From Stenotrophomonas sp. SAU14A_NAIMI4_8 (GTDB lineage: Bacteria; Pseudomonadota; Gammaproteobacteria; Xanthomonadales; Xanthomonadaceae), in assembly GCF_003086695.1 (NCBI RefSeq), contig NZ_CP025999.1, positions 3,796,344 through 3,860,343 on the forward strand: a DNA stretch of 64,000 nt, read 5' to 3'. Numbering within the stretch: the stretch's first letter is position 1; the number at the start of each line of letters is the position of its first letter. The position numbers and the translations under genes are program-made. The notes under the pieces are model-generated. The model had not been told where the DNA came from. It saw only the letters and a list, made by a program, of their open reading frames with translations, and searched no databases. Shown in pieces: positions 53,587 through 55,532 of this stretch.

Positions 53587-53692
53587 TAAAATCTTCATAA
53601 AATTTCACGCCCCGCTGGCGGCGATGCAGCGCACCGCGCCGGCCGTTACGTTGATTTTATGCAGGGGCGGCAGAACACGGCTGGCGATTTTA
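53587..53692. promoter_or_regulatory. ATTTTA boxes in the kdp/AroQ-like divergent region
   Basis: TAAAAT occurs at 53587 and 53598, exactly 11 bases apart, as expected for the tandem half-sites of OmpR-family regulators such as KdpE. In the opposite orientation, GATTTTA occurs at 53653 and 53686, 33 bases (three turns) apart. The first pair lies about 95 bases upstream of the porin start, the second 60-95 bases before the divergent gene at 53750. Binding by KdpE is inferred. Confidence 0.5.
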
Positions 53693-53749
53693 CGTAGCCC
53701 ACCGCGACCATGGCATCACCGCACCGCAGGGTGTGAAACCAGAACCGCC

Positions 53750-54151
53750 ATGACCGTGATCGTGATTCGCCACGCAACCCCCAGCAGTGTGCCGCCGAGC
53801 CTGCCTGCGCACTTGGGCAACCATCCCGTGGTCTGCAAAGACTGCAGTGGCGTGGAAGAGATTCGCCAGTGTCTGTGCCAGATCGACGCCCAGCCCCGCG
53901 ACTGGGTGGTGCTGGAACTGGGTGCCGTGGACGAGCAGCAATGGTGCGAACAGGCCGCCGCGCTGGGCCACGCGCTGGACCAGTTGCCGGCGCAGTACAT
54001 TGAAGTCCAGGCCACCTGCGAACTGGATCTGCAGTCGCGGCTGCGCCTGCAGCATGCACCGGCCGCCGTGGTGGTCGACCATCGCAACGCGCAGGGCGGC
54101 TATCCGCTCTCGCTGGGCATCATCCGCCACCGTCTGGCCATGGAGGCCTGA
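53750..54151 (+). CDS. AroQ-like degenerate protein 1
   Basis: 133 residues. The layout follows type II dehydroquinase: a strand at the start (TVIVIRH), EEIRQCLCQIDAQ, DWVVLELGAVDEQQW in place of the IINPGA segment, and PAQYIEVQ where AroQ has PVVEVH. The catalytic Tyr loop, the Asn of NPGA and the His of EVH are all missing. It is probably a non-catalytic relative; similarity is judged by eye and is weaker than for the next gene. Only 3 bases separate it from that gene. Confidence 0.65.
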   Translation: MTVIVIRHATPSSVPPSLPAHLGNHPVVCKDCSGVEEIRQCLCQIDAQPRDWVVLELGAVDEQQWCEQAAALGHALDQLPAQYIEVQATCELDLQSRLRLQHAPAAVVVDHRNAQGGYPLSLGIIRHRLAMEA

Positions 54152-54154
54152 GCC

Positions 54155-54601
54155 ATGTCGATCTTCATCATTCGTGGCCCGGAAGCCAGTGGCCGTCTTA
54201 TCCGCACGGCTGCACCGCTGCCCAGCCCCGTGCTGAAGGCACTGGTGGAACGCGCCATCGATGCCGGCACCACCATCGCCATCCGCGCGTGCGGTTCCGA
54301 ACAGGAACTGCTGGACGCACTGCGCGTGGCCGACCACAGCCGCGGCGAGATCACCCTGCTCGACCCCGGTGCGTGCGCCGACAGCACCCGCCTGCAGCGC
54401 CTGCTGCCGCATCTGCATAACGCCTATGTGGAAGTGCACGACGATGGCGCGCAGCGCGAGACCTGCATTCCGGCTGGTGCTGGGCGCCGGCTGGCGGTGG
54501 CCAGTGGCTACGGTGCGCAGAGCTATGCGTTGGGGCTGGAGATCGCGCTGGAACACCTGGGGCTGGCCGAAGACAGCAACCGCTTCCACGTGGGGACCTG
54601 A
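54155..54601 (+). CDS. AroQ-like degenerate protein 2
   Basis: 148 residues. Clear type II dehydroquinase pattern: IFIIRGP for ILVINGPN, EQELLDALRVAD for EGELIDWIHEA, ITLLDPGACADST for IIINPGAYTHTS, AYVEVHDDGAQRE for PVIEVHISNIHARE, and SGYGAQSYALGLE for the C-terminal helix. The active-site Asn is Asp, the His of the THTS loop is lost and the Tyr loop is gone; His of EVH and an Arg remain. Likely a pseudoenzyme or a protein with a new role. It is co-transcribed with the preceding gene. Confidence 0.75.
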   Translation: MSIFIIRGPEASGRLIRTAAPLPSPVLKALVERAIDAGTTIAIRACGSEQELLDALRVADHSRGEITLLDPGACADSTRLQRLLPHLHNAYVEVHDDGAQRETCIPAGAGRRLAVASGYGAQSYALGLEIALEHLGLAEDSNRFHVGT

Positions 54602-54619: not shown

Positions 54620-54642
54620 GTAGCGTCGAGCCTTGCTCGACG
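54620..54642. repeat. GTAG palindrome
   Basis: GTAGCGTCGAGCCTTGCTCGAC, 18 bases after the stop of the second AroQ-like gene. Confidence 0.7.
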
Positions 54643-54747
54643 AACCGTCGGCAACCGGTGTCGCAATCGGCGCGCCGCCGCGTGCGTCTGCAGCGCATCG
54701 GTGTATTGCAACAATTTCGATCTTTCCAACTTTCCTCATTGGCGGCC

Positions 54748-55027
54748 AAGGCGACCCATGCGAAATATGGGTGGCCACCGAAAACGGGTGGCACGGGCTT
54801 GCAATCCCGTGGGTAGTTTCTGCTGGTTACGCTTGCCTGTCGGCGTCGCCCATTCCCTGTGGGTGGCGTCGGCAGGCACTCTGTCCGCGCACCTATGGCG
54901 GGCGGTGCGTGGGGGCCTCGTGCCCGCCGGCTTTTGCAGAAGCTCCCCGGTATTGCAACCACGCACCGTCCGCCACCCTTGCTGTTAAGCGGGGTGGCTT
55001 CTTCGCCGCATGCAGAAGGAAGCCGCC
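54748..55027 (+). ncRNA. candidate structured cis-regulatory leader RNA
   Basis: This 426-base gap holds no convincing gene. On the + strand it folds as follows. Hairpins: 54754-54759/54767-54772, 54774-54779/54787-54792 with a GAAAACG loop, and 54793-54797/54806-54810. A 19-bp stem: 54834-54852/54860-54878, with all four non-Watson-Crick positions G-U. A pseudoknot: 54885-54893/54904-54912, whose loop (54897-54903) pairs with 54922-54928. A competing 16-bp stem: 54897-54912/54959-54974, one G-U. Near the gene, 54972-54978 pairs with 54992-54998, and the exclusive alternative 54996-55004/55015-55024 hides the ribosome binding site AGAAGGA. It looks like an on/off leader; the ligand and the family are unknown to me. 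Confidence 0.6.
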
Positions 55028-55429
55028 ATGAGCACCTCGCGATACCCGTACCTGTTCGCCACTTTGGGCGAGGCCGCCAACACCCTGCCCGATGAACTTG
55101 CCCAGCCGCTGGAAACCACGCTTGCCGCCCAGCAGACCGATGCGGGCATCACTCTGCTGGGCAGCCTGCAGCGCATCCGCCAGGTAGATGCCGCCGATGG
55201 CCAGCCGCTGCAGCGCAAGGGGCGTAGCAACGGCCAGTGCATGGCGCTGGCGCGCATCCATCGCGCCAACGCCGGGCTGACGCTGCTGCTGGAACTGCTG
55301 CACGCCAGCGAGCGCGTGCGCGTGGATGGCGACGAAGCGCAGCAGGTCGGCAACGATGTGCGCGAAGGCCTGCTGCTCGCGTGCCGTGGCCTGGCTGAGT
55401 ATGTGGATGTGCAGGTGCACGCGGCCTGA
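55028..55429 (+). CDS. unknown protein controlled by the structured leader, 133 residues
   Basis: I do not recognise the family. It is soluble, mostly helical, without signal peptide. The middle, RSNGQCMALARIHRANAGL, is basic, and the C-terminal third (LLLELLHASERVRVDG, then EGLLLACRGLAEYVDVQVH) is a pair of amphipathic helices. AGAAGGA lies 8 bases before the ATG at 55028 and is the sequence that the leader hairpin would sequester. Confidence 0.7.
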   Translation: MSTSRYPYLFATLGEAANTLPDELAQPLETTLAAQQTDAGITLLGSLQRIRQVDAADGQPLQRKGRSNGQCMALARIHRANAGLTLLLELLHASERVRVDGDEAQQVGNDVREGLLLACRGLAEYVDVQVHAA

Positions 55430-55436
55430 GGCATGC

Positions 55437-55532
55437 CGCCGGGCATGGCCCGGCGCTACCGATGGTGGCCGAGCCGTGCCCCGCGGCGCCGGTGTTGCCC
55501 GGCCCCTGGTAGCGCCGGGCCATGCCCGGCGA
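55437..55532. repeat. facing pair of GTAG palindromes
   Basis: CGCCGGGCATGGCCCGGCGC with TACC at 55437-55460 and GTAGCGCCGGGCCATGCCCGG from 55509. They lie between the convergent unknown gene and glmS. Confidence 0.8.

Follow-up and report, generated by a model that had tools for sequence, protein, structure and literature searches.

The leader of the gene at 55028-55429, in the window (the whole stretch of DNA analysed, 64,000 nucleotides), almost certainly holds an antisense RNA of the C4 type together with its own upstream target. Read directly from the DNA are the C4 fold, a matched target upstream of it, a unit of this kind before 23 of the 24 genes of one protein family, a preference of the copies for their own targets, and the joint change of the two pairing segments, a in the target and a' in the C4 RNA. 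We give a probability of roughly 0.6 to the whole reading, in which the leader would be an antisense unit of the P1/P4 immunity type that represses its own gene and whose private specificity turns over fast.

The leader spans 54766-55027. An earlier sequence-only reading had described a structured RNA of a class that it did not recognise and had named C4 antisense RNA as a comparison to make. That comparison settled the class: the Rfam C4 family (RF01695) matched over its full length (1-87) at 54891-54980, with 68.4 bits compared to a gathering score of 45. It was the sole Rfam family above its own cut-off within the 64-kb window, where no known riboswitch family scored above cut-off. The features of the locus are as follows.

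54774-54792, + strand: H1, leader hairpin GCCACC/GGTGGC; 98.7% paired, with both-sided changes at 4 of 6 pairs (78 leaders)
54793-54810, + strand: H2, target hairpin, its loop (54799-54805) being b; stem 70.0% paired in the 78-leader alignment
54799-54805 with 54952-54958, + strand: b (the H2 loop) with b'; both-sided changes at 7 of 7 pairs, 78.8% of cells paired
54815-54823, + strand: a, the private part of the target, which pairs with 54936-54944 of the a' loop over 9 bp, one of them G-U
54834-54878, + strand: H3, the 19-bp stem of the sequence-only reading; both-sided changes at 16 of 19 pairs (78 leaders)
54891-54980, + strand: C4 domain, the RF01695 match
54896-54912 with 54959-54975, + strand: P1 of C4, the 16-bp rival stem of the sequence-only reading
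54913-54925, + strand: P2 of C4, part of the RF01695 match
54927-54950, + strand: P3 of C4, with the a' loop at 54931-54946
54952-54958, + strand: C4 linker b', before the 3' strand of P1
54972-54998, + strand: 3' hairpin overlapping the 3' end of P1; 89.8% paired, one pair going from A-U to G-C in 7 sequences
55014-55020, + strand: ribosome binding site AGAAGGA, by direct reading; mostly paired in the predicted fold
55028-55429, + strand: gene for a 133-aa protein of a family with 24 genes in its own genome

The two pairings of b with b' and of a with a', both absent from the earlier reading, join partners about 110-160 nt apart on one transcript. On the + strand, the fold of 54766-54990 reached -126.9 kcal/mol, with z = -6.2 against dinucleotide shuffles versus z = -3.6 for the other strand. 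The locus is flanked by REP-like palindromes with GTAG, presumably of the SMAG type of S. maltophilia, at about 54620-54650 and at 55437-55530, and it could by that token be a DNA element of the same kind with no RNA function. We give this next to no chance, since the G-U pairs and the covariation fall on one strand, the folding scores differ between strands as given above and the locus matches an RNA family model; the earlier claim of an RNA rather than a DNA palindrome is upheld.

No promoter was found by consensus and no intrinsic terminator, the single terminator-like match being H2, and the isrK family (RF01394) gave no match at E up to 1. An NTG precedes a TTTACGC-like motif in 45 loci, where the three frames are open in 35, 29, and 31 of the 45; since no frame is open in all of them, a leader peptide is not claimed. 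The open reading frames of 48-64 kb, presumably a kdp-type potassium operon, glmS and an ABC or efflux set, are by reading not prophage-like. Two adjoining genes lie at 54155-54601 and 53624-54151, the first of them weakly similar to type II dehydroquinase (PF01220 below cut-off). DNA similar to that of 54155-54601 was found in 87 of the 91 genomes of the genus, with several short, weak matches among them; where complete genomes were listed, its map position usually differed from that seen here.

Covariation was assessed in 78 of 81 non-redundant leaders of the main subfamily, the window row replacing that of locus L077. Set aside before alignment were 28 loci of a second subfamily, copy C15, loci without an ORF, and near-duplicates; left out of the alignment were both rows of L125 (a tandem C4 pair) and L090 (copy C16, with a changed target), an omission that works in favour of the b/b' figure. 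At least four rows stop short at a start codon further upstream. For a model combining H1, H2, H3, P1, P2, P3, and b/b', 90.2% of the cells were paired and 39 of 62 pairs showed both-sided changes. The both-sided cells numbered 305 versus 111.5 in shuffled alignments, with none of 500 shuffles reaching the observed count, a control that may be inflated by relatedness; slid versions of the model, which keep relatedness and use a structure read from one row, were 32-48% paired. The stems of homologous leaders therefore covary, as the sequence-only reading had proposed to check, and the two long stems that it drew are both present: 54834-54852/54860-54878, of 19 bp with four G-U pairs, and 54897-54912/54959-54974, of 16 bp with one G-U, which extends to 17 bp when 54896/54975 is counted and is 99.2% paired in the 78 leaders. 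The H-type pseudoknot of that reading (54885-54893/54904-54912 with 54897-54903/54922-54928) exists as complementarity in the sequence, its first helix 72-75% paired, its second 92.5%, and the whole 82.8% in the 78 leaders, but covariation does not uphold it. It had 4 both-sided cells, where shuffles averaged 1.5 (20 of 500 reaching 4) and slid versions had 2 to 10, and its covariation score was 0.108 versus 0.103 in shuffles and 0.094 for the best slid version. The long-range pairing that covaries is not the pseudoknot; it is that of upstream b/a with b'/a' of C4.

According to the earlier interpretation, a ligand- or fold-driven switch would set P1 against the 3' hairpin and thereby hide or free the ribosome binding site. 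The hairpin (54972-54978/54992-54998) is indeed present and conserved and overlaps P1, with 9 both-sided cells versus 1.7 in shuffles, a limited covariation. Pairing against the ribosome site was also slightly above that of shuffles, weakly so in Stenotrophomonas (0.28 versus 0.33, p = 0.011, with the lower value at 65 of 104 loci) and clearly in 21 loci elsewhere (0.26 versus 0.41, lower in 18 of the 21). Formation of the hairpin did not free the site in folding: the mean probability of being unpaired was 0.27 in both states across 93 loci, and the window itself gave accessibilities of 0.18 and 0.04 in the two states, a change in the wrong direction. As the pseudoknot on which it drew is without covariation too, we consider such a switch very improbable, and the earlier reading is partly confirmed in what it observed and partly supported in what it concluded.

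The window comes from a genome (G000) of 4,479,100 bases in one contig, which contains 26 C4 matches above cut-off, here numbered C1 to C26; other genomes and loci carry G and L numbers. A profile search with the downstream protein found 24 family genes in this genome, and 23 of them lie directly 3' of a C4. The earlier assignment of the element to the leader of the downstream gene was right. Twenty of the 26 copies share a common plan of H1, H2 with a short loop, a variable stretch, H3, C4, 3' hairpin, ribosome site, and start codon. Five others (C10, C20, C22, C23, and C26) form the second subfamily, and C15 is separate from both. The second subfamily, which comprises these five and 23 loci in other genomes, is marked by GCCAACCC in C4, and in its five G000 copies b' is ACGCCAA, b is TTGGCGT, and the region from a to C4 is different. 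Three C4 copies are without a family gene, namely C12 (a tandem leader copy before C25), C15, and C23. At C15 (G000:C1:2383545-2383635) the C4 precedes a different ORF of 82 aa, and a complementary segment lies only about 20 nt upstream of the C4. The sole family gene without an above-cut-off C4 directly upstream (G000:C1:1902735-1903022) has a weak score and is possibly a decayed unit. In another genome, a single gene at locus L125 (G066:C1:1301900-1302093) is preceded by two tandem C4 RNAs, which are separated by about 20 nt and differ in their a' loops.

Copies of C4 were found in 57 of 91 genomes of the genus (46 with 6 to 26 matches and 11 with 1 or 2), in 53 of 247 genomes of a family sample (9 of the 53 from the genus, and at most 5 copies outside it), and in 24 of 369 genomes of a class sample (at most 6 copies outside the family); the copy numbers are lower bounds, since the larger searches score fewer candidates per genome. 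In nine complete genomes including G000, 115 of 156 C4 units are head-on to replication (21 of 26 in G000 and only 9 of 21 in G069), with the origin taken at base 1 and the terminus at mid-genome; the nine genomes are related, so these counts are not independent. All nine sequences presumably begin with dnaA. Among the papers listed from an open-licence library, none was on C4 RNAs of Stenotrophomonas.

The family proteins are about 115-141 aa long and are under purifying selection (dN/dS 0.03-0.19 in the 12 pairs computed). The window protein had at least 548 relatives at E up to 0.001; among the 120 matches listed, the named organisms were Stenotrophomonas apart from one "compost metagenome" and one family-level name, and one was labelled DUF3077. 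Its AlphaFold2 model is all-helical (pLDDT 86.5, pTM 0.60), and a fold search with it gave no match better than E 0.75 in the PDB and E 0.91 among viral structures. Neither Pfam nor PHROGs matched the window protein, and NCBIfam returned only TraB at the chance level of E 0.053. Searches with 17 paralogues gave three Pfam matches, one member each (E 0.086-0.18), and PADLOC gave PDC-S02 (E 0.0053) and PDC-M16B (E 0.025), again one member each, all of which we took as chance. With tblastn at E up to 0.01, the window protein had no match among 50,697 phage records and the C5 paralogue none among 72,556 plasmid records, and a phage or plasmid origin was rejected on these results.

The upstream targets prefer the C4 of their own leader. 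When duplex energies were computed for the 26 targets against the 26 C4 loop regions of G000, self pairs averaged -36.2 kcal/mol and non-self pairs -24.7 (sd 4.0), the own C4 was the best of 26 for 20 targets, and the self sum of -941 lay beyond the best of 20,000 permutations (-757). The same held in six complete genomes with 116 loci (out of 117 above cut-off, one of the 21 in G069 being missing): in each genome the self sum was more favourable than in any of 10,000 permutations, and for 90 of the 116 targets the best partner was the own C4. Restricting the pairing to a/a' gave about -17 self versus about -9 non-self, with the own partner best in 70 of 116 and the sum again beyond all permutations. 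The linked leader is in this sense complementary to a' and b' in the manner of C4 systems, at an upstream target and self-specifically. Six copies in G000 break the rule: C15, which has no target of this kind at the usual place, ranked its own C4 25th, and C5, C16, C19, C23, and C26 ranked theirs second. The C4 loop of C16 (G000:C1:2203132-2203220) is nearly identical to that of C19 (2209591-2209678), and the upstream target of C16 has changed, so that its RNA fits the C19 leader better (-42.6 kcal/mol, versus -39.0 for C19's own); judging by these energies C16 may act in trans on its neighbour.

No fewer than 114 of the 116 a' regions are distinct, a diversity that suggests selection against cross-talk. 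Of the non-self pairs, 2.9% within genomes (n = 1132) and 3.9% across genomes (n = 5186) reached -15 kcal/mol, and for proteins at least 70% identical the shares were 1.4% (n = 74) and 6.0% (n = 200), respectively; these are plain percentages, and this within- versus cross-genome comparison did not demonstrate avoidance of cross-talk. That result, and the self matching as such, would be expected if the pairing were a contact in cis, with b-a/a'-b' folding the leader into one pseudoknotted RNA (the a/a' helix beside P1) that sets expression, and no C4 RNA acting in trans. Both partners do lie on one transcript, and b' ends at 54958, next to the 3' strand of P1 at 54959, so that the two helices could stack in one RNA. 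We nevertheless find a purely cis role unlikely, though credible. Among 156 copies, all 156 have a T/C-GG start and 152 an RCC 3' end, RNase P-like marks that speak against it. C4-like RNAs of A. baumannii, moreover, appear in RNA-seq to be processed and abundant (PMC5320573, cited, like the other papers here, from excerpts). A cis contact also gives no obvious reason for so many distinct a' loops, or for their changing faster than the flanks and the protein.

Such change is seen between paralogues and at fixed loci. In 19 pairs of paralogues from one genome with proteins at least 85% identical, a' identity was 0.57 compared to 0.50 in random pairs, and the C4 stems, spacer, and ORF averaged 0.88-0.95; three of the 19 are an artefact of the tandem L125 with its one shared gene, and the identities of H1, H2, and a (0.65-0.69) and of H3 (0.79), compared by fixed offsets, are partly shift errors. 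The change of a' against a kept scaffold is visible base by base in the tandem copies C11 and C24. Orthologous loci were compared among the 116 loci plus 10 each from G088, G063, G024, and G043 (which have 10, 14, 13, and 12 above cut-off), and 24 locus pairs shared at least 80% identity in both flank and ORF. Of these, 15 had an a' identity below 0.65 with a scaffold identity of 0.90; the pairs are non-independent and fall by our grouping into 9 sets of loci, 7 of which include such a change. In these 15 pairs a and a' have both changed and still match, with -16.3 kcal/mol for own versus -7.8 for crossed pairing, although among single pairs one crossed value of about -13 equals a weak own value. 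Across 23 reciprocal-best protein pairs (mean 87% identical), a' identity averaged 0.58.

The clearest single case is C1 and its counterpart in G088, which are 94.3% identical over 1151 upstream bases and 92.6% in the ORF and have an identical spacer. In their a and a' patches, 11 of some 24 bases are different and two one-base gaps occur, and pairing is -16.9 and -21.8 kcal/mol for own versus -7.0 and -6.6 for crossed combinations. By a count made by eye, these 11 differences are more than would be expected even of synonymous change at about 25% per base (p = 0.02, for this one pair). With two patches changed and the sequence between them nearly unchanged, import of a whole cassette is argued against; the pattern would suit diversifying selection with stepwise, compensated change as well as copying from one complementary patch to the other. 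We tentatively picture, at slightly less than even odds, some two dozen orthogonal RNA lock-and-key units of one fold on one chromosome, each privately silencing its own paralogue. Two patches of about 12 nt, lying about 100 nt from each other, would change together and so replace the specificity of a fixed locus, faster than protein or scaffold change and driven by diversifying selection against cross-talk or by templated copying.

The C4 RNAs might instead protect the cell from phages or satellites under C4-type control, the self target being merely inherited from a phage unit. Such a role would agree with C4 being the immunity RNA of P1/P7 (PMC8198154, PMC12197685), and the excerpts of PMC5320573 make the same proposal for A. 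baumannii. We consider it improbable for these loci: most units precede genes of a family under purifying selection, the units change and yet keep matching their own leader, and the window protein is without a match among the phage records searched.

The preferred reading is an antisense RNA that silences its own gene. That it is expressed and processed, and that its pairing leads to repression, is proposed by analogy with known C4-type systems. The C4 RNA of P1/P7 is processed by RNase P to an RNA of about 77 nt. By the same route the leader would be transcribed and RNase P would cut C4 out at the conserved GG of P1; the freed RNA would bind b-a of its own nascent leader, and this would stop productive transcription into the gene, as the P4 CI RNA does on seqA. 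Each family gene would in this way limit itself, and a and a' would diversify because cross-repression between copies is harmful. Many chromosomes carry C4 RNAs, and here the target can be read directly: it is the leader to which the copy itself belongs. As many as 26 natural pairs per genome, together with the changed orthologous pairs, make the rules of orthogonal antisense control and the evolution of private specificity open to direct test; candidates for insulated RNA regulators can be drawn from the set of C4 leaders, and the tie of many paralogues to C4-type control provides a handle on an unnamed protein family.

In the Stenotrophomonas units only the upstream target is detectable. Downstream, where b2/a2 would cover the ribosome site, self pairing equalled non-self pairing in all six genomes. 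Among 33 loci outside the genus, an upstream target was detected in 27 and a downstream one in 4 (z < -2, mononucleotide shuffles, contiguous-window test); 33 of 34 loci were scored (L105 was too short), L102 and L117 were excluded, and several are from the same genome or near-duplicates. By eye, several of them (L063, L066, and L069) have a second b just 3' of C4 and, beyond it, a second a within which the next gene's ribosome site lies, an arrangement described for P1/P7. The anti-ribosome-site motif occurs in a' of 20 of the 33 loci elsewhere versus 21 of 116 Stenotrophomonas copies. Like the C4 of P1/P7 (RF01695), the units described here have the P1-P2-P3 fold, with the a' loop and b' as antisense, in the leader of the gene controlled; in P1/P7 a second target covers the ribosome site of the next gene and heteroimmunity is determined by a' (PMC5320573 and PMC12197685, in the portions consulted). 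They differ from P1/P7 in their 26 copies, in an upstream target that is the only detectable one, in a window protein that has no phage-family match and in the 95 of 116 a' loops that lack the anti-ribosome-site motif. Because no downstream target is detectable and the motif is rare, the step from pairing to repression is not transferable from P1.

P4 CI (seqA/seqB/seqC) and the IsrK-C4 units of Gifsy-1 and Burkholderia likewise have their target in the leader that holds the antisense RNA, on its upstream side. The P4 CI RNA pairs with seqA upstream and seqC downstream, which leads to premature termination (excerpts of PMC4825925), and in B. cenocepacia isrK and C4 form one transcription unit (excerpts of PMC4603805). 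No seqC-type downstream target was found here, unlike in P4, and the place of the IsrK terminator hairpin is held, by eye, by H3 with no U tract. Another parallel is the Group 1 C4-homologous sRNAs of A. baumannii (21 copies), which are also dispersed over the chromosome, have a variable a' loop, and seem to be cut from longer precursors; their targets are discussed as either phage or cell transcripts, and in the part of PMC5320573 consulted no matched target or linked gene family is given for them. Most copies here have a matched target and a linked paralogue. A further likeness is to plasmid copy-control antisense RNAs, whose incompatibility loops are short, complementary, and of private, diverging specificity. 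The C4 leaders differ from these in lying before a chromosomal gene family and having no replication control, and resemble them in their private, diverging loops.
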